This document shows, piece by piece, positions 12,948-50,998 of a stretch of DNA of 64,000 bases (positions are counted from its first letter, which is position 1; each line of letters opens with the position of its first letter). The DNA comes from Candidatus Gastranaerophilales bacterium (GTDB lineage Bacteria; Cyanobacteriota; Vampirovibrionia; Gastranaerophilales; Gastranaerophilaceae): contig CALUYS010000008.1 of NCBI GenBank assembly GCA_944325065.1, positions 1 to 64,000 of the forward strand, written 5' to 3'. The position numbers and the translations under genes are program-made. A model generated the notes under the pieces. That model did no database searches. It saw only the letters and a program-made list of their open reading frames with translations, and was not told the origin of the DNA.

Positions 12948-14834
12948 TTGTTTTCAAAGTATAACTCACAAAATAAATATAATAATAATGAACAATTAAA
13001 TACTGATAAAAAATTAAGCAACAGACTTAAAAGTGAAAATTCAAATCCAATAGGGTCTTCAATTGTTAATAAAATCAATAGTTTAAATTTATCAACAAAT
13101 GCAAACAATAGACTTTATGGTGGTTATTATAGCTCATCAAGTAAGGTTGCTAAGAAAGTTGATATAAATGAATTTGTATCAATAATAAATGAAATATTTT
13201 CAACAAAAGATGATATTTCCGAGGTTTTTTATTCAGTTCATAATCTTTGTTCCAATTGTTTAAATACAAATTATACAGCATTAGGGCTTTTAAATTTGCA
13301 AAAAAATTGTATAAATTTAAAGCTTATTGATAAACTTGATAGTGTCTATTCAAATCGTTTATTAATAACAAACGATGTAAATCCTGCGGTAAAATCATAT
13401 TTAACAAGTGAAGTTATTATATGTGACAATTCATCATTTTTATCAGTTGTACATTTAAAACAGGATCATTGTTTTATTTTACCTATTATCGTTAAAAATG
13501 AAACAAAAGGTGTAATTTTATTTGGAAGCCAGAATAAAAATTTACCTCTTGGTGAATTAAAACTTATTTCAACAATGATGGGTATGTTTGTTCAGAATAG
13601 AAATTTAGAACAAAAAGTAATACAAAATGCTGATAATGATGTTCTGACTGGTTTATATAATTATCGTAAAATTCAGCAAATATGTAATGTTGAACTAGCT
13701 AAGGCAAAAATTGATAATTATCATTTATCAATAATAATGCTTGATATAAATAATATGATGTCAATAAACAAAGAATTTGGATGTCAAAAGGGTGATGAAA
13801 TAATTCAAATTGTAGCAAAAAAGATAAAAGAACTTATAAATTTTGATAAGTATTATGCTTCACGTTATGTTTCAGATGATTTTTGTATAATAATGCCAAA
13901 TACTGATGAAAACGAAGCTAATGAATTTAGTGGTCGGATAAAATATTCACTATCCTGTCAAAATATTGATGATGTTGGACCTATCAAAGTTTCAATTGGA
14001 GTTATAACTGTTAATCAGATAAATGAAGATTTCGATGTTGAAAAAGTTTTTTCACTTGCAAAACAGGCAATGTATATTTCAAAAAGCAGATCTTATGAAA
14101 CAGGTGAATCCGCTATTATAAAATCATCACAGTTTAAATTCTGGGATGAAGATGCTTTAAAATCTTATGCTTCTGTTTTAACTAAACAGTATAGTCATAT
14201 GGGTGCAAATTTTGAAGAAGAACTTATAAACCAAATTAAAAACGAAGATATTCTTTCGCAGGTGCATTTGATTGACCTTGTTACACTTCTAGCATCAGCT
14301 ATTGATGCAAAAGATGAGTATACCAAAGGGCATTCCTTATCGGTATCACGATATAGTGAAGCTCTTGCACGTGCTTTGAATCTTCCTGAAAAAGAAGTCG
14401 AACAGATAAAACTTGGTGCGTTGCTTCATGATGTTGGTAAAATCGGAATCCCTGAGCATATTTTGAAAAAAAACGACAAACTTACTGATGAAGAATGGAA
14501 AATAATGAAAGAACATCCTGTAATAGGTGCTGAAAAAGTATTAAAATCAAATGCTTCACTTCATAAACTTATACCTATTGTAAAATATCATCACGAACAC
14601 TTCGATGGTTCAGGATATCCTGATAAATTAAAAGGAGAAAATATTCCACTTGTAGCAAGAATCGTTGCCGTGGCAGATGCATATCACGCACTAATTTCAG
14701 ATAGACCTTATAGAAAAGGATTGAGCATTGAAAAAGCCTGTGAAATTCTACGTATTGGCTCAGGTATCCAGTGGGATTCAAATTTAGTACGAAAATTTAT
14801 TGAACTTGCACCTTCACTTTCAACAAAAGTTTAA
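12948..14834 (+). CDS. Degenerate GGDEF plus HD-GYP signalling protein
   Basis: A cyclic-di-GMP phosphodiesterase candidate. After a polar N-terminus of about 60 residues comes a GAF-like sensor region (about 65-215), then a GGDEF domain (DVLTGLYNYRKIQ, LDINNMMSINKEFG) in which the active-site loop is VSDDF instead of GGDEF, so it should not make c-di-GMP. The C-terminal HD-GYP domain is intact: KDEYTKGHSLSVSRYSE, HDVGKIGIPEHIL (near residue 497) and HHEHFDGSGYP (near 547) contain the metal-binding and GYP residues. No membrane segment, so it acts in the cytoplasm. Start TTG at 12948 follows AAAAGGTATG. A possible target in this window is the MshEN-containing pilus ATPase. Confidence 0.88.
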   Translation: MFSKYNSQNKYNNNEQLNTDKKLSNRLKSENSNPIGSSIVNKINSLNLSTNANNRLYGGYYSSSSKVAKKVDINEFVSIINEIFSTKDDISEVFYSVHNLCSNCLNTNYTALGLLNLQKNCINLKLIDKLDSVYSNRLLITNDVNPAVKSYLTSEVIICDNSSFLSVVHLKQDHCFILPIIVKNETKGVILFGSQNKNLPLGELKLISTMMGMFVQNRNLEQKVIQNADNDVLTGLYNYRKIQQICNVELAKAKIDNYHLSIIMLDINNMMSINKEFGCQKGDEIIQIVAKKIKELINFDKYYASRYVSDDFCIIMPNTDENEANEFSGRIKYSLSCQNIDDVGPIKVSIGVITVNQINEDFDVEKVFSLAKQAMYISKSRSYETGESAIIKSSQFKFWDEDALKSYASVLTKQYSHMGANFEEELINQIKNEDILSQVHLIDLVTLLASAIDAKDEYTKGHSLSVSRYSEALARALNLPEKEVEQIKLGALLHDVGKIGIPEHILKKNDKLTDEEWKIMKEHPVIGAEKVLKSNASLHKLIPIVKYHHEHFDGSGYPDKLKGENIPLVARIVAVADAYHALISDRPYRKGLSIEKACEILRIGSGIQWDSNLVRKFIELAPSLSTKV

Positions 14835-15269: not shown

Positions 15270-15302
15270 AAAAAACGAATACTTTTTAAGTATTCGTTTT
15301 TT
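15270..15302. terminator. Bidirectional terminator between rpsT and the usher operon
   Basis: A perfect ten-bp stem ACGAATACTT / AAGTATTCGT with loop TTT, preceded by A-run and followed by T-run. It lies between two convergent transcription units and so can stop both. Confidence 0.9.
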
Positions 15303-18291
15303 ATAATTTATAAATATACTCTAAATTAACATTATCAATAATCACAAAATCTTCATATTTGCAGGGTATTTCAACAATAAAATTTTTTGATTCAGTTGTT
15401 GGTTCTATTTTTAATAATTCAAGTAACTCGTCAACTATTTTTATTTGATATTTGCCTGGTGCTAAAGATGAAAATGAAAATGTTCCATCATCATTTAGAT
15501 TGGTATAATCAATTTCTTTATTATTTGCATCAAAAATACTAACAACAAGGTCATTAAATTTTAAATATTCGCCATATTCGTTCTTTATCGTAACTGTGCC
15601 TTCTATTTGACCTGATGAGCTTATCAAACCAAATTCTATTGGTGTTAATTTTCCATTTTCGACTTTTACATGACGATTTGGTTTAGTATTTTTGTGAACA
15701 TTTAAAAATGTAGGTAAATTATCTTCACATAAACTTACATTATATATCCCTTCTTCAAGTGGAACAATTTTTGTTGTTCCTTTTTTATCTGTATAAATAG
15801 GATTATGAAGATTTTCAAATTTGATTGGTATATTTGCAATATAAGGTTCAGTTTCGTCTTTTATTCCGTTTAAGTTTATATCAAGAAAAGTTTTCGCAAC
15901 AACTTTGCCTTTGTTTATATTGTTCAATCCTATTGGTTCAAGGGATTTATCACCAAATCCATAAACTTCTCCAAAATCAACATTCACGCTATGACGCATG
16001 TTTGACGGAATATAAATATTATTTATCATTACAAAAGGAACTACACTGTAATGGTATGCAAGACTTACTGTTGAGCCAGATTTTAAACGCTTGGTTATCC
16101 CTATCCCAAAATCAGTACCTTTATTTGTTCCACTATAATGATAGGCGGCATTTATATTCAAGCTTATATTCTTTATCATTGGGCTATTGTATGAAATTTT
16201 GATTTGCTTATAATCATTTGTTATGCTATCTGACTTTGTTTTAACTATATTATGTGATATTGTTGCATTACCAAATTTCTTACCGATTGGAAAACTTATA
16301 TCAGTATATATATCTTGGTATTTTGAACTATAATTTATAAAATCAGATTGATTGTATATATTTTTATAGCTATTTTGTCTAATTCCCGTGTTTATATTTA
16401 TATTTTTATACCGTTTTGATAATGATGCTTCAAACATACCAGTTTGAATTTCGCCTATTTCATTTCCACCTTCTTTGTTTGTTAGTTTTATATTTAAATT
16501 TGGTATTTTTTGAAAATTAGTACGAAAATATAAATTATAATCATCAATTTGCATTTTACCGCCATTAAAATAATCTGAAAAATTAGTTAAATATTTTGAA
16601 TAACTTCCTTGGAACATGCATTTTTTTATTGTAGTTGAAAAACTTACATCCCCTCCTAATCTATCCCAATAAAACCCCCCATTTGACATATTGCCTGCAA
16701 CATAAAAATCTTTTGAGGAAGAAAAAATACTTCCTTTGATTTGTGTTTTATTATTTGGATTAAAACACGATTCCCATTTTATATAATATCCTAATCCGCT
16801 TGAAAGATTTTCAATTTGGGTTGTATTTTGACTTAAGCCTAAATAAAATTTTGAATTAAGTTTGTTATTATGATTCATATTTAATATATTCATTTGTGTA
16901 ATCCCTTCATAGTTGTTAGGATTACGAAAGTTTGTAAAGTTTAAATAGTTTTTATTGCCAAAAATACTTTGTAAATATTTATTCTCATTATTTTCAGATA
17001 AGATACTATCAGCTATCAAAAAACTTTCATAGCTTATTTTATCATTTAAAGGTTTTTGATATTTTGTGCCTAAGACAAGTTTTTTTGCGTTGGATTCATA
17101 AATATAGTCATTCATTGCAAAAATACGATTTTGATAACCTGAAATTCCTGCTATTATATCTTTTTTAGACTCAAAATCTTTTGTATTATTTATTTTTTCA
17201 TAATCAATATTTAAAATCTCACGACTATTTCCGTTTGACATAATTTCATTTAATTTTATATTTTTTATTTTGTTATAATAACCAAGGTTTTTTAATGTAT
17301 AATAACCATTATAGGTGTCTAAATTTTTTATAAATTCACCATCATTTATTGAAACCTTTATAACTGAACCTTTAGTTACTTTCCCTTCTAATTTATTTAT
17401 ATCAGTTTTTTGATAGGTTTTATTATCAATATCTTTAATTTGAACCCCTAAAATATCATGTGACATTGAAAACCCATCAAATTCCCAACTTTGTGGCTTG
17501 CCAATTGTATATTCAAAATTTTCTGTTTTATTTCGATATTGGGGTGTAATTCCTGAAAAACCCAAAAGATTATCATTATAACTATTTGTCCCAAGTTCAA
17601 GTGAATAATCCCCTGATTTTATTTTGCCATTTAATGTTAAATTTAAGTTGTTATTGTAGTTTAAATTTGTATCCCGGTTGTTTTGATATATTTGAGAATA
17701 TGTATCTGATAGCATACTTTGCCTTATTGAAAGACTATCAAATGTTATTGCTTTTTGTTTTCTAGGCAAATAAATATCATCATATCCCCTAGCTTTTTTT
17801 TCTTCTTTAACTAAAAAACCTTTAAATGCATTTTCATTAAGTTTATTATTATTGGCAACAATGTCATCTTTAGTTTTAACATACGTTATAAAATTTATAA
17901 AATCCGAGGTAAATTTATACCCCAAAATTTGAGAAAATGCTTTATCAACAATAAAATATTCATTTTTAATATCAGTAATTCCATTTTTGATATAGAAGAT
18001 TTTATAATTTAATTTATTATTATTTTTATATAATTGATTATTTATGATTTTAAACTCACCAAAACTTATGCTTTTTTGAGCATGGTTTTGAGTATAGTTT
18101 ATATTAAATAAATCAAGAATAACTTTTAAAGGCAAATAAATTTCATTATTTTGTGCTACTACTTCAATTTCATATTCATTTTCATTATCTACATTTATTG
18201 TAGAAATTATATTTTCAAACCCGAAGCAAGAATTTATACTTGCAATAGAAATAAAGAAAAGAAAAATTATTGAACTTAAAAACTTTAGCAT
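15301..18291 (-). CDS. Usher-like outer-membrane protein of a divergent chaperone-usher system
   Basis: A 996-residue secreted protein with signal peptide (FLSSIIFLFFISIASINSCFG). Residues about 30-120 resemble the 'copper amine oxidase N-terminal-like' module (NNEIYLPLKVILDLFNI). The long middle is made of alternating beta strands, as expected for a large barrel; near residue 320-370 a stretch (INDGEFIKNLDTYNGYYTLKN) matches the style of the usher plug/middle domain. Near residue 800 FLDINLNGIKDETEPYIANI is the calcium-loop/SdrD_B-like module typical of archaic and cyanobacterial ushers, followed by two Ig-like C-terminal domains. Its start overlaps the upstream pilin-like gene (TAATG). Chaperone and pilin-like genes upstream support the assignment. 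Role: outer-membrane pore for pilus assembly. Sequence divergence is high, so moderate confidence. Confidence 0.65.
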   Translation of the reverse strand: MLKFLSSIIFLFFISIASINSCFGFENIISTINVDNENEYEIEVVAQNNEIYLPLKVILDLFNINYTQNHAQKSISFGEFKIINNQLYKNNNKLNYKIFYIKNGITDIKNEYFIVDKAFSQILGYKFTSDFINFITYVKTKDDIVANNNKLNENAFKGFLVKEEKKARGYDDIYLPRKQKAITFDSLSIRQSMLSDTYSQIYQNNRDTNLNYNNNLNLTLNGKIKSGDYSLELGTNSYNDNLLGFSGITPQYRNKTENFEYTIGKPQSWEFDGFSMSHDILGVQIKDIDNKTYQKTDINKLEGKVTKGSVIKVSINDGEFIKNLDTYNGYYTLKNLGYYNKIKNIKLNEIMSNGNSREILNIDYEKINNTKDFESKKDIIAGISGYQNRIFAMNDYIYESNAKKLVLGTKYQKPLNDKISYESFLIADSILSENNENKYLQSIFGNKNYLNFTNFRNPNNYEGITQMNILNMNHNNKLNSKFYLGLSQNTTQIENLSSGLGYYIKWESCFNPNNKTQIKGSIFSSSKDFYVAGNMSNGGFYWDRLGGDVSFSTTIKKCMFQGSYSKYLTNFSDYFNGGKMQIDDYNLYFRTNFQKIPNLNIKLTNKEGGNEIGEIQTGMFEASLSKRYKNININTGIRQNSYKNIYNQSDFINYSSKYQDIYTDISFPIGKKFGNATISHNIVKTKSDSITNDYKQIKISYNSPMIKNISLNINAAYHYSGTNKGTDFGIGITKRLKSGSTVSLAYHYSVVPFVMINNIYIPSNMRHSVNVDFGEVYGFGDKSLEPIGLNNINKGKVVAKTFLDINLNGIKDETEPYIANIPIKFENLHNPIYTDKKGTTKIVPLEEGIYNVSLCEDNLPTFLNVHKNTKPNRHVKVENGKLTPIEFGLISSSGQIEGTVTIKNEYGEYLKFNDLVVSIFDANNKEIDYTNLNDDGTFSFSSLAPGKYQIKIVDELLELLKIEPTTESKNFIVEIPCKYEDFVIIDNVNLEYIYKL

Positions 18292-18920
18292 TATGGTATA
18301 TTATCCAGATACACTAAGACTTCAAATGTATTATTACCATCCAAAGCAGTTTGGCTATCGTAAGTTCCGGGTTTGGGTGTTGGTGAAATATTCAAGGAAA
18401 TATTTGTATTTCCTTCATTAATACTACAATTATAAAAAGATTGATTACTTCCATCAATTTGGTATTCAATAGTACCAGAGTTATCAATATTTAAAGAACC
18501 CATATATGCAATTGCTTCTTCATTATTAATTGAATTTGAATTAGATAGTTTGCAATCATTTATAGAACTTGCACTTGGAGGATATGTACTGTTTGCAAAT
18601 ACCATATAATATTGGCTTTGATTTGATATCCCTGTTTGATTTGACGCAAAGGCACTTTGTGCTGTATTGTTTAAATCATTAACTATTGCTTTAAGTTGGA
18701 TATTATTTATGCTTTCATTTGAAGAAACTAAAAAATTGATGTTCAAATTTGACCCTAAATTTCCACTATCAGGGTCAATATTTGTAGTAAAATTACCTGA
18801 TATATCAACAGAAACAGTTGGTGTAACTTCAATTAAAAGGTTATTAACCGCAACTGTATCAGCTTGTGCTTTATTTACAATAAAAAGTATACAAATAAGT
18901 AAAAATTTAAAAAGTTTCAA
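18291..18920 (-). CDS. Pilin-like exported protein (third subunit, most divergent)
   Basis: I place the start at TTG 18920, ten bases after GGAGG; the longer frame to 19001 would overlap the previous gene and begin with a non-signal sequence. This gives MKLFKFLLICILFIVNKAQA as a clean signal peptide and a 209-residue protein, matching the size of the two upstream paralogues. The mature part is beta-rich with Asn/Ser/Thr, contains PDSGNLGSNLNINFLVSSN comparable to the D..G.L...L.PGF.I.SN block of the other two, and ends in a strand. Two cysteines could form a disulfide. Being last before the usher and most divergent, it may be a tip or adaptor subunit. Its stop overlaps the usher start (TAATG). 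Confidence 0.68.
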   Translation of the reverse strand: MKLFKFLLICILFIVNKAQADTVAVNNLLIEVTPTVSVDISGNFTTNIDPDSGNLGSNLNINFLVSSNESINNIQLKAIVNDLNNTAQSAFASNQTGISNQSQYYMVFANSTYPPSASSINDCKLSNSNSINNEEAIAYMGSLNIDNSGTIEYQIDGSNQSFYNCSINEGNTNISLNISPTPKPGTYDSQTALDGNNTFEVLVYLDNIP

Positions 18921-18951
18921 AACAAAAAAGCCTCCATCTATAAATTTATGT

Positions 18952-19587
18952 TTAAATAAAAGATAATGTAATTGTTGCTTGATAGCTTCCTGCTTCATCA
19001 CAAGTTGAGTATGTGTTTGTCAAGGGGACTTCACCTGCTGGTATTTCAAGATTTAATGGTATTGCTCCACGTTTTAACAAAGTAATATCCCAACGATTGT
19101 AGTTATTGTCATAATATACTTTCATAACGTTTGGTATATTTTCTAAATTTGTCATACGGTAAGCTATTACATTAGGGTTATTATCAGAATTTAACGCTCC
19201 ATTAAATTTTTTTACACAATCAACACAATAAGATTGGGGCAAGGCATTTGAATTTGTAAGAGCTATATAGTGATAATCAAGACTAAACAAAGGAAAGAAA
19301 AATGCATTAACGGTACCTTCTTGAGTGTTACAAGTTGCGGTCAATTGTAATGATTTTTCAGTATTTGAATTTGTTGTTATTAAAAATCCTGGTGTTAATG
19401 AATTGCTTAATTTCCCATCTTGTGTATCAATATTTGCACTTAGCTGCCCACCATTTGTAGTTATTGATTTTATCTCACCATTTGTGGCACTTAATTTTGT
19501 TATAGGTGTTTGAGCAGCAAATGTTTTTGATATTGAGATTGATATATAAAATATCAATACTAGTAAAAATATATTGTATTTTTTCAT
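18952..19587 (-). CDS. Pilin-like exported protein (second subunit)
   Basis: A 211-residue secreted protein with signal peptide ending near KTFAAQ. It is clearly related to the next upstream gene: both have G-x-I-x-x-I, an ID-x(3)-G-x-L-x(3)-L-x-PGF-x-I block, G-x-VNAF, Y-IAL-x-N, a NPNVI-x-Y block and the ending E-x-GSYQA-x-I-x-LS. Such short beta-rich proteins ending with an alternating hydrophobic strand are what chaperone-usher pilins look like. It has four to five cysteines (CVDCVKK, CDEAG) that its neighbour lacks, suggesting extra disulfides. Confidence 0.7.
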   Translation of the reverse strand: MKKYNIFLLVLIFYISISISKTFAAQTPITKLSATNGEIKSITTNGGQLSANIDTQDGKLSNSLTPGFLITTNSNTEKSLQLTATCNTQEGTVNAFFFPLFSLDYHYIALTNSNALPQSYCVDCVKKFNGALNSDNNPNVIAYRMTNLENIPNVMKVYYDNNYNRWDITLLKRGAIPLNLEIPAGEVPLTNTYSTCDEAGSYQATITLSFI

Positions 19588-19623
19588 TTTTTTAAACTTT
19601 CAATATTATATGTAAAAATATTT

Positions 19624-20259
19624 TTAATTATAAGAAAGAATGACAATAGCTTGATAACTTCCTGATTCATCATTGCCGTTAAATGTATTCGGTTTTGCAC
19701 TAGCTGCAGGCACTACAAGTTGTGTAATTGTATCACCCTGATGTGATAGATTTACATCATAATAATTACCAGAGGAATTCCAACTATATTCAAGTTGACC
19801 TTCAATATTTGTTGGTGGTGTCACAGCATAACATATTACATTGGGATTCAATGCTGCTTGAGGTGAATCACTTTGTGCATTGGTTATTGCTTCGCTTGTT
19901 GGTGGTGTTGTAATATTTGATAAAGCTATATAAACATTCCCGTTTGATGATGAAAATGCATTAACCTCCCCAGATGTTGATGTTGTTGTGGCTGTTAGTG
20001 TCAAAGCTTGTGTTGTTCCTATGTTTGATATAATCTTAAAACCAGGATCTAATGGTGATGTAAGACTTCCTGTGTCATCAATTGTTGTTGATGTAGTTCC
20101 ACCATACGATTCAACAGCTGAAATAGTTCCTAATACTGCTGTTACCGTTTGTGATGCTATTGGTGCTGCTTTTACTTCATTAATATTCAATAAAGAAATT
20201 AATGTTGTAGCTAATAAAAATGTTGGCATTAATGATTTTTTCTTATTTTTATTTATCAT
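19624..20259 (-). CDS. Pilin-like exported protein (first, probably major subunit)
   Basis: A 211-residue Thr/Ser/Ala-rich secreted protein with signal peptide (TFLLATTLISLLNINEVKA). The mature N-terminus APIASQTVTAVLGTISAVES is a probable donor strand, and the C-terminus GSYQAIVILSYN a probable final strand. An excellent GGGAGGAG site stands before the ATG, the strongest in this operon, which fits a highly produced major subunit. It lies directly after the chaperone gene. Paralogue of the next gene. Confidence 0.7.
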   Translation of the reverse strand: MINKNKKKSLMPTFLLATTLISLLNINEVKAAPIASQTVTAVLGTISAVESYGGTTSTTIDDTGSLTSPLDPGFKIISNIGTTQALTLTATTTSTSGEVNAFSSSNGNVYIALSNITTPPTSEAITNAQSDSPQAALNPNVICYAVTPPTNIEGQLEYSWNSSGNYYDVNLSHQGDTITQLVVPAASAKPNTFNGNDESGSYQAIVILSYN

Positions 20260-20294
20260 AAAAAACTCCTCCCAAAGTTAAAACTTTTCCTTTT

Positions 20295-21146
20295 TTATAT
20301 ATTATTCATATTACTTTTTAAGATATTAAAACTTGTTTCTTTTTTTAATATTTTTTCTTTGTTATTTTCATCCATATATGTAAGAACCAATTTTAGATTA
20401 TAATTTTTATCATTATTTAAATTACAATCTTTTAAATCAATTTTTTGTTCTTTTTCAAGGTAAGAACCTATTCCACCTGGGATATTTGAAGAAATGACTT
20501 TGAACTTTTTTAATAAGTTATTGTTATTATCAGTAATATAACCCCATCCGTTATATCGAACTTTACTTGTGCCATTTGATGAAATTTTATAAGTACAATT
20601 TAAAATCCCATTATTTTCATTAGCATTTAAAGTCAAAATTTGTGCTTTTTTGGTGAAATTGCCTTTATTGACATAAATTGGTACACCTACTCTTGTCTTT
20701 ACAAGTATTTTCCCACCAATATTACCATTTAATTTGCTAAGTAAGACTTCTTTTGTATTTACATCCTCCAAAAAAAGCATTAATCTTGATTCACCATTTT
20801 GAAGCGTTTTTAATCCTGTAATTGTAAGTCGAACTTTTTGAGGTTGACCATTTTGACAGGTAAATTCCATTGGATAAAATTTTATTTTGCCCATTAAAGA
20901 TTCTTTTTGACCATTATCTTTTAATTCAATAAATCGTCCTTTTTCATCATATTTAAAAAATACAGGATATAATTTAAAACGTATTGTTTCATTTATCCCA
21001 CCTGAAACATTAAATGCTGTTGAAATATAGTCTTTTTTTGTTGTATTTGCATTAAGTTCAATTGTTGATGGTGCAATTTTTATTGCTGCCTTGACTTCTA
21101 TAAGTGAAAAAAATAACATTAAAATTAATAAACATAATTTTTTCAT
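20295..21146 (-). CDS. PapD-like periplasmic pilus chaperone (divergent)
   Basis: A 283-residue secreted protein with signal peptide (LCLLILMLFFSLIEVKA). The mature part starts AIKIAPSTIELNAN, the usual first strand of PapD-type chaperones, and shows two Ig-like domains: the first with RLMLFLEDVN and the second after VKTRVGVPIYVN, corresponding to the conserved 'vr.r.gvpi(y/f)v' strand that marks such chaperones. The C-terminal domain is longer than in typical PapD. Position between an exported protein and pilins on one strand supports a chaperone role. Stop and start with the upstream gene are two bases apart. Confidence 0.65.
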   Translation of the reverse strand: MKKLCLLILMLFFSLIEVKAAIKIAPSTIELNANTTKKDYISTAFNVSGGINETIRFKLYPVFFKYDEKGRFIELKDNGQKESLMGKIKFYPMEFTCQNGQPQKVRLTITGLKTLQNGESRLMLFLEDVNTKEVLLSKLNGNIGGKILVKTRVGVPIYVNKGNFTKKAQILTLNANENNGILNCTYKISSNGTSKVRYNGWGYITDNNNNLLKKFKVISSNIPGGIGSYLEKEQKIDLKDCNLNNDKNYNLKLVLTYMDENNKEKILKKETSFNILKSNMNNI

Positions 21147-21148
21147 AG

Positions 21149-22060
21149 TTAATAAGTTTCCAATCTATATTCAAATTCTTCTAATTTAGAGCCTGATTTT
21201 AAAAAAGTATCTTTTGGACCTTTTATTAAATAATCAAGATTTATGAATTGTTTATCCAATTTTTTAATTGAATCGTTAAATGTTGCTTTTCCGCTTGCAA
21301 CAAGTACTTCATCATTATTTAATAAACAAGTAAAGTTATTATTTAAATTGGTGACAATTTCATTTTGGGTATTTAAAATTTTAATATATGGTGTAATTTT
21401 TAAACTGTTATTAATGTCATTGGTTCTACGTTTCACATATAATTTCCAGTCTTTATTTGAGGTAATATATAAAGTTACTGGCATTTTCAAGTTTTGTTGT
21501 GCGTTTTTTTGTAAGATATTTTCCTTATCAATTTTTAGATTGATAAATTGATTCGAAAATTCTATTTTTGTAATTTCATCTATTTCGAAATTATAGTTAT
21601 AAATATTTTGAGCAATAATATTTTGGTTATTATCAACTAAAGTAAATTTTATATCACAAGTGTAAAAACCTGGTCTATCAATATCTTGTGTATTTATAGC
21701 AAAGTTAAAATTTAAATTATTTACTCCATTTGACGTATTATCAGAATTTTTAATCTCAACTTGTTTTGAATTTTCAAAATTATTAAATGGAATTTGTCCT
21801 AAATTTGATATTTCAAAACGTGATAATGGAATATAATAATTTGGGTATGTTTGGTTTTGAATATTTAAGTCAAGAACTTGTGCATAAAGTTTCCAAGGGC
21901 TATTTGAATAAAATGACAAATTTACTTGTTGCATTATTTTGTTCCCAAATTTTTGACTTTGTGAAATTTTTTCAAAATGTAAATTATTTGCAAAAACTAA
22001 ATCTGAACTTAGAATTATTATATTTATTGTTAAAACTACAATATATTTAAATAACTTCAT
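21149..22060 (-). CDS. Exported protein with two similar Ig-like halves
   Basis: A 303-residue secreted protein with signal peptide ending near DLVFAN. It has an internal duplication: VNLSFYSNSPWKLYAQV in the first half and VTLYITSNKDWKLYVKR in the second, both followed by a polar stretch and strands. First gene of the operon; the next gene begins immediately after its stop. It may be an extra chaperone-like or surface subunit of the pilus system. I do not recognise a named family. Confidence 0.65.
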   Translation of the reverse strand: MKLFKYIVVLTINIIILSSDLVFANNLHFEKISQSQKFGNKIMQQVNLSFYSNSPWKLYAQVLDLNIQNQTYPNYYIPLSRFEISNLGQIPFNNFENSKQVEIKNSDNTSNGVNNLNFNFAINTQDIDRPGFYTCDIKFTLVDNNQNIIAQNIYNYNFEIDEITKIEFSNQFINLKIDKENILQKNAQQNLKMPVTLYITSNKDWKLYVKRRTNDINNSLKITPYIKILNTQNEIVTNLNNNFTCLLNNDEVLVASGKATFNDSIKKLDKQFINLDYLIKGPKDTFLKSGSKLEEFEYRLETY

Positions 22061-22236
22061 ACAATAAATCCTGTTTCTGTATATGACTTGTTTTTTTATT
22101 TTTCATTTTAAAAAAGATTTATCACTTGCCCAGATATATATAAAATATGGATAATATAAAATTTATCCTTTTGTATAATAAAAAAAACTAATTTATAAAT
22201 TAAGTTGTCTATATAAATGTCGAGGAATAAATAATT
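22061..22236. promoter_or_regulatory. Divergent promoter region
   Basis: A 176-bp AT-rich gap between the head of the minus-strand pilus operon and a plus-strand exported protein. Both promoters must lie here. No palindromic operator stands out. Confidence 0.35.
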
Positions 22237-23184
22237 ATGAGAAAAAAAATATTCAGCCTTTTTATAATAATGGGTTTACTTTTAAGTCATATTAATAATA
22301 GTGTAAAAGCTAATAATGCAAAAAGCCCAATAGCTGCTCAACATTTATCAGCTTATTATGTTAAAAATCCAAATATTGCTATTACCGAGCCAAATGATGA
22401 AAATTCTATAACCCCAACCATTTCAAATACTGAAAGTAATCCTCTTAGTGTTAGTAATGCTAGTGACGACGGAAGTAGTGGCTTATCAACAGGTGGTATT
22501 GTTGGTATAGCTGTTGGAACAGGAGGTGGTGTAGCAGCAGCAGGTGGTGCATTAGCTTTAGCTCCAGTTTTTTTAGCAGGACTTATACCAAATGGAATTA
22601 TAGGAGCTGCAGCTCCTATAAGCAATTATGATGAATCAAAAAACTACTTAAGGCAAATTCTGCTTGAGAACTATAAACCTGAGGATATTCAAAAAATAAT
22701 CAATCAAAAACGTATAGATAATAATTTTTATATAACCCAAAATGATACAGCATTAAATAATAACGGATTTAATATCCAAGAGTTTAAACTTCCAAATGAA
22801 CTATTTAATTATAAACAGGTTAAAATGAATGTAATAATGTATTCAGATCCATATCGAGATATTGAAACAGATCCTGAACTTGCCTTTGAAGCTTTTAAAA
22901 ATATAGAACTTAAAACATTAAGTAAAAAATTTGAAACCCAACAATTTTTACATAACTATATTATGAATAGATATAAATTGCCTTTAAATATAAATCTTAA
23001 AAATTATAATGTAGGTAAACAAACACTTTCAGGGATAATTGATATGACAAAACTTAATACAAATAACAACAACTGGATTGTAGTTCGGTATACAAAGGGT
23101 GGATTTAACGGCCGTAAAGCAAAGCTTGAAACTCCGACACAGATTGTTTATGCTTATCTAGTTGAATTAATTCCTATTAAATAA
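22237..23184 (+). CDS. Exported protein with glycine-rich membrane segment, unknown function
   Basis: The N-terminal 25 residues are a signal peptide (FSLFIIMGLLLSHINN). A polar linker follows, then a Gly/Ala hydrophobic segment at about 87-125 (GGIVGIAVGTGGGVAAAGGA) that could cross a membrane. The C-terminal 190 residues are soluble, with helices (LRQILLENYKPEDIQKII) and later strands ending VYAYLVELIPIK. No known motif. It is transcribed away from the pilus operon and might belong to the same surface system, but this is only proximity. Confidence 0.7.
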   Translation: MRKKIFSLFIIMGLLLSHINNSVKANNAKSPIAAQHLSAYYVKNPNIAITEPNDENSITPTISNTESNPLSVSNASDDGSSGLSTGGIVGIAVGTGGGVAAAGGALALAPVFLAGLIPNGIIGAAAPISNYDESKNYLRQILLENYKPEDIQKIINQKRIDNNFYITQNDTALNNNGFNIQEFKLPNELFNYKQVKMNVIMYSDPYRDIETDPELAFEAFKNIELKTLSKKFETQQFLHNYIMNRYKLPLNINLKNYNVGKQTLSGIIDMTKLNTNNNNWIVVRYTKGGFNGRKAKLETPTQIVYAYLVELIPIK

Positions 23185-46955: not shown

Positions 46956-49004
46956 TTAATCATTTACCGGACCTAAAACACGAAGAAATTCTTTTATAGT
47001 AGTTTCTCCATTTATAATATGTTGATAACAAGAATCTTGTAGTGTTTTCATCCCTGCTTTTATTGCAGCATCTTCTATATCTAATTCAATTGCATTACGT
47101 GCTATCATTTTCCTTATATCTTTTGTTATTCTTAATATTTCATAAACACCTAAACGTCCTTTATATCCTTGATAATCACATTCTTCACAACCCTTAGCAG
47201 TATATATAGTTGTATTCATAAACTCTTCATATTTACTACTATCAGAAACTATCAATTTTGCATCATCTAATGTTGGTTTATATTTTTCTTTGCACTTTGG
47301 ACATAAACGACGAACTAAACGTTGTGCAATAATACCAGTTAAAGTAGAAGCTACTAAATAATCTTTTGCTCCCATTTCTATCATACGTGTTATTGTTGCC
47401 GCAGCACTATTTGTATGAATTGTGCTTAATACTAAATGGCCTGTTAATGCAGCTGAAATAGAAACATCAAGTGTTTCCATATCTCGTATTTCACCTACCA
47501 TTATTATATCGGGATCTTGACGTAAAATTGCTCTCATATTTGATGCAAATGTTATATCAGCTTTTTTATTTATTTGACTTTGATTTAAACGTTCAATTTT
47601 TATTTCAACTGGATCTTCAATAGTAGTAATATTAACTTCTTCCTTATTTAAATTTTTTAATATAGAATATAATGTTGTTGTCTTACCACTTCCTGTTGGA
47701 CCTGATGCTAATATTATACCGTTTGGTGATGCAATAATTTTATATAATTCATCCATATCGTGTTTATTTGCACCAATCAAAGATATTTGTTTGTCATCTG
47801 AAGATATTGAAACTGCAGGTGCTAATACACGAATGACCATCTTTTCTTTACCTGCTACAGGGATTGTATTTAGACGGAAATCATATGAAATATTTTTATA
47901 TTTTAATGAAAATGTTCCATCTTGAGGACGTCGATGTTCTGCTATATCCATTTTGGCTAATACTTTATATCGAGTTATTATTGCAGATTCAACACGAGGT
48001 GGCAAGCGTAGAACTTCTTTTAATATACCAGCTATACGAAATCGTACAGCATAACCTTGAAACCTAGGCTCAATATGAATATCACTTGCACCCATATCAA
48101 TAGCATCGCAAATAATCTTTGTGTTAAATTTTGCAACACTACCTGTTGAATCACGTATTTCTCGTTCTATTAATTCAGAAAAAGTCTCATCATTCTCAAA
48201 TGTAGCTTCTTCTTCCATTGTTTTTATTATATCTAAAGTTTCTTTATTATTCTTGTTGAAATAAGTTTCAAGTAAATTTTCAAATTCTTGACTTGTCATT
48301 AAACGCACTGTTATTTTTAAACCAGTTAAATATACAACCTCGCTTAATGCTCTTCTATCATTTGGATTTAACATACCAAGAACTAAATTCTTATCTTCTA
48401 ATTCTATTGGTATAACTCTGTGTAATCTTATAAAATCTTCAGGTAATAAATTAAGAACATCTTTTGAAATTTTTAAATTATTAGTATTAATAAAATCCTT
48501 ACCTGTTTGAAAAGTTAAAAATTCCCGTAAATCATCTGCTGAAATATAATTCTTTTGAACTAGCACTGAACCTAATGGAAGTTTTAGCTGCTTTGATAAT
48601 ACTAAACATTCATTTAATTGATCTTGAGTTATTAATTCTGATTCAATTAATAACTCTCCTAACATTTTTTTTGGTTGATTTGCACCACTTTTCTTTAATT
48701 TATTTAAAAACTTACGAGCTTTTTCACTAATATGATAAACATTATGTTGATACCATGTTATTAAGTCGTTTAATATATTTGAAGATAAGGCAATAAATTT
48801 ATAATTTTTTTCTTGACCCAATATTCCTTTTATAAATTGTTCAGATTCAAGCGTAAATTTTTTGTCATCTGTTGCAATATAATAATTATTATTTCGTAAA
48901 CACATGGGTATAAAACTATACTTAACAAAATCAAGATAGTCAAACTTTGATGCTAAATCAATATCTATATTATCTTTTAGCTTTTCAATTAAGTCAGTTG
49001 TCAT
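46956..49004 (-). CDS. gspE: Type II secretion/type IV pilus assembly ATPase (GspE/PilB) with MshEN domain
   Basis: The hexameric motor for pilin extension. N-terminal MshEN-type region (about 113-235) contains MLGELLIESELITQDQL and LPLGSVLVQKNYISADDL, the repeated pattern that in MshE binds cyclic di-GMP. The ATPase domain has IIDP-equivalent segments, GPTGSGKTTTLYSILK (Walker A), IRQDP-like region and VGEIRDMETLDVSISAALTG (Walker B/His box), plus the CPKCKEKY / GCEECDYQGYKGR zinc tetracysteine. 682 residues. Located between gspD and gspF. Confidence 0.94.
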   Translation of the reverse strand: MTTDLIEKLKDNIDIDLASKFDYLDFVKYSFIPMCLRNNNYYIATDDKKFTLESEQFIKGILGQEKNYKFIALSSNILNDLITWYQHNVYHISEKARKFLNKLKKSGANQPKKMLGELLIESELITQDQLNECLVLSKQLKLPLGSVLVQKNYISADDLREFLTFQTGKDFINTNNLKISKDVLNLLPEDFIRLHRVIPIELEDKNLVLGMLNPNDRRALSEVVYLTGLKITVRLMTSQEFENLLETYFNKNNKETLDIIKTMEEEATFENDETFSELIEREIRDSTGSVAKFNTKIICDAIDMGASDIHIEPRFQGYAVRFRIAGILKEVLRLPPRVESAIITRYKVLAKMDIAEHRRPQDGTFSLKYKNISYDFRLNTIPVAGKEKMVIRVLAPAVSISSDDKQISLIGANKHDMDELYKIIASPNGIILASGPTGSGKTTTLYSILKNLNKEEVNITTIEDPVEIKIERLNQSQINKKADITFASNMRAILRQDPDIIMVGEIRDMETLDVSISAALTGHLVLSTIHTNSAAATITRMIEMGAKDYLVASTLTGIIAQRLVRRLCPKCKEKYKPTLDDAKLIVSDSSKYEEFMNTTIYTAKGCEECDYQGYKGRLGVYEILRITKDIRKMIARNAIELDIEDAAIKAGMKTLQDSCYQHIINGETTIKEFLRVLGPVND

Positions 49005-49036
49005 TTTATTATTTTTATTTCTTTTTTACTTTAATA

Positions 49037-50998
49037 TTATAAATCTTCAGATTCAATTATTTCTTCTTCCGTATCTTTTATTATATGAGGAGTAATTGTA
49101 ATAACAAGTTCTGATTTTTCAGTTTCTTTTTGTGAATTACGGAAGAAAAAGCCCAAAACCGGTATATCACCCAATAATGGTGTTTTACTTATGTTTTGTT
49201 TTTCAGTTTCTTGTATCAACCCACCTAATACAAGTGTTTCTCCATCTTTTATCCTAACACCTTTTAAATCTAAATTACGACGTTGAAGTAACGTTGCTGC
49301 AAGCTCTTGTTGACCAAACTGATTTTGTTGGTATACAGGCTCTTTTATTGTTGAATACATTGGCTTTATATTCAATGATACATAACCATCAGGGCTTATA
49401 AATGGTACCATTGCTATTTTCATACCGTTGTCATTACCTATTTCATATTCTTTTTGTGTTCCACCATACATACCTACACTACCTGTTTGTAATATTTCAG
49501 ATGTAACTTTCTTTACATAATCAGATGATAAGTCTATGGTTGAGTTTTGACCGTTTGTGATTAATATTTTTGGTGTGGCTAAAACACGACCTTTGTTATT
49601 TTCAATTAAATAATTTAAGCTTTGTGAAATTACAGGCGATGTTCCCCATTTATATATTGTATCAACTAAACCTGGGATACCTCCGTGATTAAATTTTCCA
49701 GGTGTCCCACCCCAGAATATTGGCGTATTTGTTCCAGTTGTCAAACCATTGCCTCCAACTGAACCTGAAAACCATTTACTATATACATTCCAAGTGTTAT
49801 TAAATTCTTTTGAACCAGCATCCGTTAATTCAATTATAGAAACTTCAACAAATGCTTGGGCTTGCTTTTTATCATTTTTCTTTATAAAATCTCTTACCAT
49901 TTCAATTTGTGCATCTGAACCACCTATCATATTGATTGTTCCCAATTGTGGTAAATACATTATTGTTAATGATGTATCACTAAATGATTTAAGCTCTTTC
50001 GAATCGGTATTACCTGAAATTTGACAAGCAACTACTCCACCACCAACAACAACTCCTGTTGTCGTTAATGTTTGTGGTGTTATCTCACCTATTTGACCAC
50101 CTTGAGTTTGTTGTGTTATTTGTGCTTGTTGGGCTTTATATTCAACTGTATTCTGTGGACTATCTGCATCTGTTATCTGTTGAAAACCACTAAAAGTCCC
50201 TGTATCACCACCACTTTTTTTCGTTAAATCCAAAAATAAAGACTCGCATATTAACTTACCCATTTCTTTTGGCGTCGTATGATTGACTTTAAATGTTGTT
50301 GTCTTCGGTTTTTTATCTAATACTCTAACAACATTTAATGCCATTTGATAATCATTATCAGATCCTATAATCATTACCTCATTTTGACTTGGATTACTTA
50401 CAGCTGTTTCTGAATTTGATAAACCAGGTTTATTTAATCCAAATATATTAGTATTTAAAAAATCAGCAACTTTTACAGAATTTGCATATTTTATTGGAAT
50501 AATATTTATTTTTTGTTTTGATACCTTTAATGTTTTGGCGGCTTCATTTTTCATAACAAGTAATGTGCCATTTTCAATAACATATGACAATTCTGCCATT
50601 TGTGAAATCATTTCCATTGCATTATTTAATGTTACACCCACTAAATCAAGCGTTATTTGACCTTCAACTGAGCTATGAAATACAACATTCAAGCCTGCTT
50701 TATCTGCAAACATTCTCAACACCTGTTTTACATCTGAATCACGCAAGCTTACCGTTATTAGTTGGTTACCATTTTTTAAATTTATTGAACCATTTAAATT
50801 TATTTTTTTACCACTCTCATAATAATCTTTATATGTTGTATTTAAACCACCATTTATTTGATTGCTACTTGTATCCACAACATTATTATCTATCTGTGAA
50901 GCATTAACTTTTATACCATATGGTATTTCCATTGTATATGATGATATTAGTGCAAGAAATGCCAAAACTTTTATTATTCTACTATTAGCTTTGCCCAT
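49037..50998 (-). CDS. gspD: Secretin (GspD/PilQ family)
   Basis: Outer-membrane channel for pili or secreted proteins. Signal peptide (VLAFLALISSYTMEI), then an STN-type domain with SLRDSDVKQVLRMFADKAG, N domains (IIPIKYANSVKVADFLN), and the C-terminal secretin domain with LATPKILITNGQNSTI and VRIKDGETLVLGGLIQE ... PLLGDIPVLGFFFRN, ending with ELVITITPHII. 653 residues. Its ATG is two bases from the stop of the upstream GspC/PilP-like gene. Confidence 0.95.
   Translation of the reverse strand: MGKANSRIIKVLAFLALISSYTMEIPYGIKVNASQIDNNVVDTSSNQINGGLNTTYKDYYESGKKINLNGSINLKNGNQLITVSLRDSDVKQVLRMFADKAGLNVVFHSSVEGQITLDLVGVTLNNAMEMISQMAELSYVIENGTLLVMKNEAAKTLKVSKQKINIIPIKYANSVKVADFLNTNIFGLNKPGLSNSETAVSNPSQNEVMIIGSDNDYQMALNVVRVLDKKPKTTTFKVNHTTPKEMGKLICESLFLDLTKKSGGDTGTFSGFQQITDADSPQNTVEYKAQQAQITQQTQGGQIGEITPQTLTTTGVVVGGGVVACQISGNTDSKELKSFSDTSLTIMYLPQLGTINMIGGSDAQIEMVRDFIKKNDKKQAQAFVEVSIIELTDAGSKEFNNTWNVYSKWFSGSVGGNGLTTGTNTPIFWGGTPGKFNHGGIPGLVDTIYKWGTSPVISQSLNYLIENNKGRVLATPKILITNGQNSTIDLSSDYVKKVTSEILQTGSVGMYGGTQKEYEIGNDNGMKIAMVPFISPDGYVSLNIKPMYSTIKEPVYQQNQFGQQELAATLLQRRNLDLKGVRIKDGETLVLGGLIQETEKQNISKTPLLGDIPVLGFFFRNSQKETEKSELVITITPHIIKDTEEEIIESEDL

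Follow-up and report, generated by a model that had tools for sequence, protein, structure and literature searches.

The six co-oriented genes that run on the minus strand from position 22060 to position 15301 of the window, by which we mean the whole 64,000-nucleotide stretch of Gastranaerophilales DNA analyzed here, very probably encode a chaperone-usher pathway that would assemble a surface fiber. We made this assignment because the largest protein is predicted to adopt the usher fold with its plug domain, and because profile comparisons link both the usher and the chaperone to cyanobacterial chaperone-usher systems. The system is a divergent branch linked to those systems and is unnamed by Pfam or NCBIfam. 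A sequence-only reading of this DNA had judged the genes to be far from textbook families, and indeed no Pfam Usher, PapD, or Fimbrial match passes threshold. Furthermore, hhalign comparisons with single E. coli FimD, FimC, FimA, EcpC, EcpB, and other proteins gave no match, and PDB sequence searches with single proteins and profiles returned nothing usable. Therefore, the assignment depends on the predicted fold and on profile-profile comparison. The system is ordinary in kind and unusual in distance, and its one surprising feature is the loss of the plug in related ushers.

All six open reading frames of the sequence-only reading are present on the minus strand, at 303, 283, 211, 211, 236, and 996 residues, except that the fifth (pilin-like subunit C) really has 209 residues (Table 1). 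Its homologues begin 27 codons after the GTG at 19001 from which it had been listed, at a TTG at position 18920 that is preceded by GGAGG, and the supposed overlap of the genes for subunits B and C is therefore an artifact of start calling. The tight spacing otherwise stands, as the genes are separated by short gaps. The proposed extent of 15301 to 22060 is correct for the six genes but too narrow for the unit, to which a divergently transcribed companion gene, whose family adjoins the operon in 17 loci, also belongs. Promoter-like matches in the region between the divergent units were no more common than in shuffled sequences.

Table 1. Features of the chaperone-usher locus in window coordinates.
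Feature	Coordinates	Strand	Length and basis
Two-domain exported protein, probable tip adhesin subunit	21149..22060	-	303 aa; AF2 fold, Foldseek, 21-member family
PapD-like periplasmic chaperone	20295..21146	-	283 aa; hhalign, sub-threshold PapD_N in family
Pilin-like subunit A	19624..20259	-	211 aa; one family with subunits B and C
Pilin-like subunit B	18952..19587	-	211 aa; family common to A and C
Pilin-like subunit C	18291..18920	-	209 aa from TTG 18920; listed as 236 aa from GTG 19001
Usher	15301..18291	-	996 aa; AF2, Foldseek, hhalign
Plug-domain coding segment, usher residues 296-374	17170..17406	-	AF2 model; missing in sister clade
Divergently transcribed companion gene	22237..23184	+	315 aa; family adjoins operon in 17 loci
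Intergenic region between divergent units, probable promoters	22061..22236	.	176 bp; coordinates and sequence
Terminator-like inverted repeat (hairpin)	15270..15302	.	Between rpsT (+) and usher gene (-)

Relative to the nearest relative, which is from the same genus and has an usher 81% identical to that of the window, dN/dS values for all six genes range from 0.09 to 0.26, indicating that the open reading frames are real, selected genes. The 1.86-Mb genome carries a single copy of the operon, and no stray pilins or additional copies of the first gene were found elsewhere in it. An outer membrane is implied by LpxI and, as read from sequence, an LpxB-like protein encoded in the same window. 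The window also holds type IV pilus or type II secretion genes at 46956-50998 on the minus strand (a T2SSE ATPase with MshEN, and a secretin), which give the organism a second candidate pilus system. A plus-strand gene near the operon (12948-14834) reads as a degenerate GGDEF plus HD-GYP protein, and in locus L032 a homologue is likewise encoded close to the operon.

The AF2 model of the 996-residue protein (pLDDT 77) comprises an N-terminal domain (NTD, residues 26-139), a barrel (about 182-779), a plug (about 296-374), and two C-terminal domains (CTD1, 795-891; CTD2, 894-994). The plug contains an inserted beta domain at about residues 300-363, which comes after six barrel strands, with some 20 more strands following up to residue 779. 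The usher-like barrel that had been proposed for this protein is thus borne out by the model. The question of whether a structure prediction would give a 24-strand barrel with a plug is answered in part, because the plug is there and about 26 long strands, not exactly 24, were counted in the barrel region. A barrel lacking the plug, which had been named as evidence against the proposal, is not what the model of this usher contains.

When the model was compared with the PDB by using Foldseek, the ten best matches were all FimD or PapC, the top one being FimD (3rfz_B, E 4.6e-21), followed by SdrD and other barrels at E values of 1e-10 to 1e-4. We regard as scarcely credible the notion that the protein is a general outer-membrane channel of the TonB-dependent or LptD-like kind and that the operon encodes an unrelated secretion system. 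BtuB, LptD, and ZnuD do appear among the fold matches, but at about 1e-6 to 1e-4, whereas the ten best usher matches score 1e-21 to 1e-12. Moreover, a plug after six strands combined with an NTD, CTD1, and CTD2 is found only in ushers, and chaperone and pilin genes adjoin.

Profile comparisons agree with the usher assignment. The usher profile matched cyanobacterial PF00577 ushers with an E value of 8e-10, and in this alignment the inserted domain falls on the plug-like segment of those ushers and a portion of the NTD on their N-terminal domain. The match to class-level relatives was stronger (E 6e-39), and in two of these (L134 and L135) the usher gene adjoins a chaperone gene. Control proteins were matched by neither the usher nor the chaperone profile. 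The Pfam usher model gave no match passing threshold in any of 18 usher family members. Pfam does report SdrD_B at residues 913-953 (E 5e-9) and, below threshold, Cu_amine_oxidN1 at residues 40-129 (E 0.005), and the same N-terminal region of the class-level relative L133 passes the cut-off for the copper-amine-oxidase domain. The copper-amine-oxidase-like region noted in the sequence-only reading is therefore a true sub-threshold match but not a separate module; it corresponds to the usher NTD, because the PF00577 profile alignment covers part of that domain. Likewise, the calcium-loop motif F-L-D-x-N-x-N-G is present near residue 803 but lies inside CTD1 rather than forming an extra part, and the D-x-N-x-N-G loop is conserved in the wider group.

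The adjoining chaperone was matched by hhalign to chaperones encoded beside cyanobacterial PF00577 ushers (E 3e-9), one of which (L115) itself matches PapD_N at 5.5e-13, and to class-level relatives (E 1e-29). No PapD match passes threshold in Pfam, and PapD_N is the most common sub-threshold Pfam match in the family (5 of 16 members). The description of this protein as PapD-like was accordingly sound. Archaic chaperones anchor the subunit carboxylate by a conserved Arg in strand F1 together with an Arg and a Tyr in domain 2 (PMC4654587). In the chaperone family examined here, R121 is conserved in 15 of 16 members, and R197, Y249, and Y257 are also conserved. Judged by position rather than structure, these residues may be equivalent to CsuC Arg89, Arg174, and Tyr196.

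The three pilin-like subunits belong to one family, for which the operons provided 38 members, with two or three per locus elsewhere. There was no match to the Pfam SCPU or Fimbrial families among these 38 proteins. By visual inspection, their N termini exhibit a conserved Q-T-V-x-A-x-L-P/G pattern that resembles a donor strand, and the amphipathicity of this segment, evaluated as an N-terminal beta-moment, was no stronger than in shuffled sequence. The pattern recurs (E 1.5e-7; full-length alignment E 2.5e-8) in a second family of pilin-like proteins of about 160 residues that is divergently encoded beside 15 loci (e.g. L035:12171-12653 and L136:4401-4877) and is absent from the clade of the window. 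The companion gene of the window (dN/dS 0.13) encodes a signal peptide, a linker, a Gly-rich hydrophobic segment (residues 83-117), and a C-terminal domain, as judged from hydropathy. Many of its relatives carry conserved cysteines after the Gly-rich segment, and the companion from L033 has the N terminus ASQTVSATL, similar to those of the pilins. Our guess is that the companion might have an accessory or anchoring role in the same fiber.

The protein encoded by the first gene is best read as the tip adhesin subunit, on the strength of its predicted fold. The sequence-only reading had described a two-repeat exported protein, and the AF2 model (pLDDT 83) contains two Ig-like domains; there is no free N-terminal extension, and the first strand directly follows the signal peptide. 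No Pfam match names the protein, whether it is searched alone or as a family. With Foldseek, the best match was to a CfaB-CfaB tandem (4e-8), then to CfaE-CfaB fusions, and then to FimH, CupB6, and CsuE, and it is this resemblance of the two Ig domains to pilin tandems and tip adhesins that suggests the role. CsuE and CupE6 also consist of two Ig-like folds (PMC10104325).

Two other roles for this protein were considered. The product of the same pathway could be an amorphous, thin coat comparable to Caf1 or the Myxococcus spore coat instead of a pilus with a tip adhesin, with the first gene encoding another coat subunit. This option seems unlikely to us, even though each operon has two to three pilin paralogues of similar length, no lectin is recognized, and the leading fold match is a tandem of major pilins. 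As would be expected of an adhesin, the gene occurs in one copy at the first position of the operon, its dN/dS exceeds that of the chaperone gene within one pair (0.112 versus 0.039), and its product also matches FimH, CupB6, and CsuE. We give little credence to the proposal that the protein is a second chaperone, like EcpE of the E. coli common pilus. Its two Ig domains, its about 280 mature residues, the adjoining chaperone gene, and a weak resemblance between its profile and that of the chaperone family (E 1e-4) would fit this role. However, pilins and adhesins lead the listed best Foldseek matches, among which there is no chaperone, and the invariant Arg/Lys set of the chaperone family is not common to the first protein. 

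In the explanation that we favor, the pathway would operate as follows. Subunits would be exported by Sec, and in the periplasm the chaperone would hold the three pilin-like proteins as well as the two-domain subunit. The usher would recruit the chaperone complexes via its N-terminal and C-terminal domains, and the plug would leave the pore as the two-domain subunit enters first, as the tip adhesin. The pilins would then polymerize by donor-strand exchange. The tip position, the adhesive role, and the contribution of the divergent gene are likewise proposals.

Archaic chaperone-usher systems have been reported in Cyanobacteria (PMC4654587), and the cyanobacterial PF00577 loci resemble the locus described here in having a homologous usher and chaperone, as established by profile comparison, with small secreted subunits adjoining. 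They differ in that their ushers are detectable by Pfam and span about 770-860 residues, whereas the 996-residue usher is missed, and in that their pilins have 150-180 residues compared to 200-210 in the separate family examined here. The two-domain gene at the start of the operon is a further difference. Relative to FimD and PapC of type 1 and P pili, the usher model has the same order and fold of NTD, barrel, plug after strand 6, and two CTDs, but the usher is larger, shares only about 11% identity in the fold alignment, and has transthyretin/SdrD-like CTDs with the D-x-N-x-N-G loop; also, some of its relatives are plugless. The first protein shares two predicted tandem Ig-like domains with the tip adhesins CsuE, CupB6, FimH, and CfaE, but differs in lacking detectable sequence similarity and in being encoded first, upstream of the chaperone. 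For the archaic Csu and CupE pili (PMC10104325), a single operon likewise encodes several pilins, a chaperone, an usher, and a two-domain subunit, yet the genes are ordered differently, and in the suggested check against Csu-type families none of the solved Csu proteins was matched by sequence. The locus may plausibly belong to the archaic class; its profiles link it to cyanobacterial chaperone-usher loci, and comparison with single E. coli sequences gave no signal from which a class could be assigned. Note that the cyanobacterial chaperone-usher-like operon in L134 (L134:3451-9029, plus strand) encodes an usher and a chaperone that match the family of the window and not Pfam Usher or PapD_N, together with one pilin that has a weak SCPU match.

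By using a new usher query, we found the usher in 23 of 146 genomes and 15 of 41 genera of one Gastranaerophilales family; PF00345 (PapD_N) was detected in none of 142 genomes of the same family. Iterated profiles applied to fetched loci revealed that the order of first gene, chaperone, two or three pilins, and usher recurs in about 15 genera. The operon is a module, since its flanking genes mostly differ from locus to locus. Its distribution is patchy, probably owing to repeated loss, as suggested by split or broken copies in other species (L036 in G037 and L048 in G010) and by remnants in G101, G169, and G176. A literature search, incomplete in its coverage, found no report joining chaperone-usher systems with Melainabacteria or ushers with Gastranaerophilales.

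The plug is missing in 8 of 24 full-length relative ushers (6 of 17 in the first alignment). These eight (L042, L043, L044, L045, L046, L047, L138, and L139) have 913-919 residues, with about 15-20 residues in place of those matching window residues 292-349 and most of 350-374. In a tree computed with the plug region removed, they form one clade with 100/100 support that spans six genera, so a single loss explains all. We searched nine genomes for a plug relocated to another gene and found none, nor did any plug-like sequence turn up elsewhere in the genomes with plugless ushers, and the same search detected the plug in two plugged controls (E about 1e-28). In the two plugless pairs with computable dS, dN/dS is 0.04-0.06, although dS itself is high, and the operons are complete.

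PapC lacking its plug forms large open channels of about 3 to 7.3 nS (PMC10418385), and therefore plugless ushers either have another gate or an open pore is tolerated. We lean slightly toward the view that they are functional assembly platforms whose barrel need never be unplugged for pili to be secreted, perhaps with another gate or shut by the fiber, the NTD, or the CTDs. If true, these ushers would represent a naturally occurring chaperone-usher system that lacks the plug. An outer membrane that tolerates a plugless usher under purifying selection would directly test whether the plug serves only as a gate in the resting state, and the loss within one clade offers a matched comparison in which the role of the plug is directly testable. 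For these gut-dwelling, non-photosynthetic relatives of Cyanobacteria, the operon provides a candidate adhesive fiber that standard annotation has missed.
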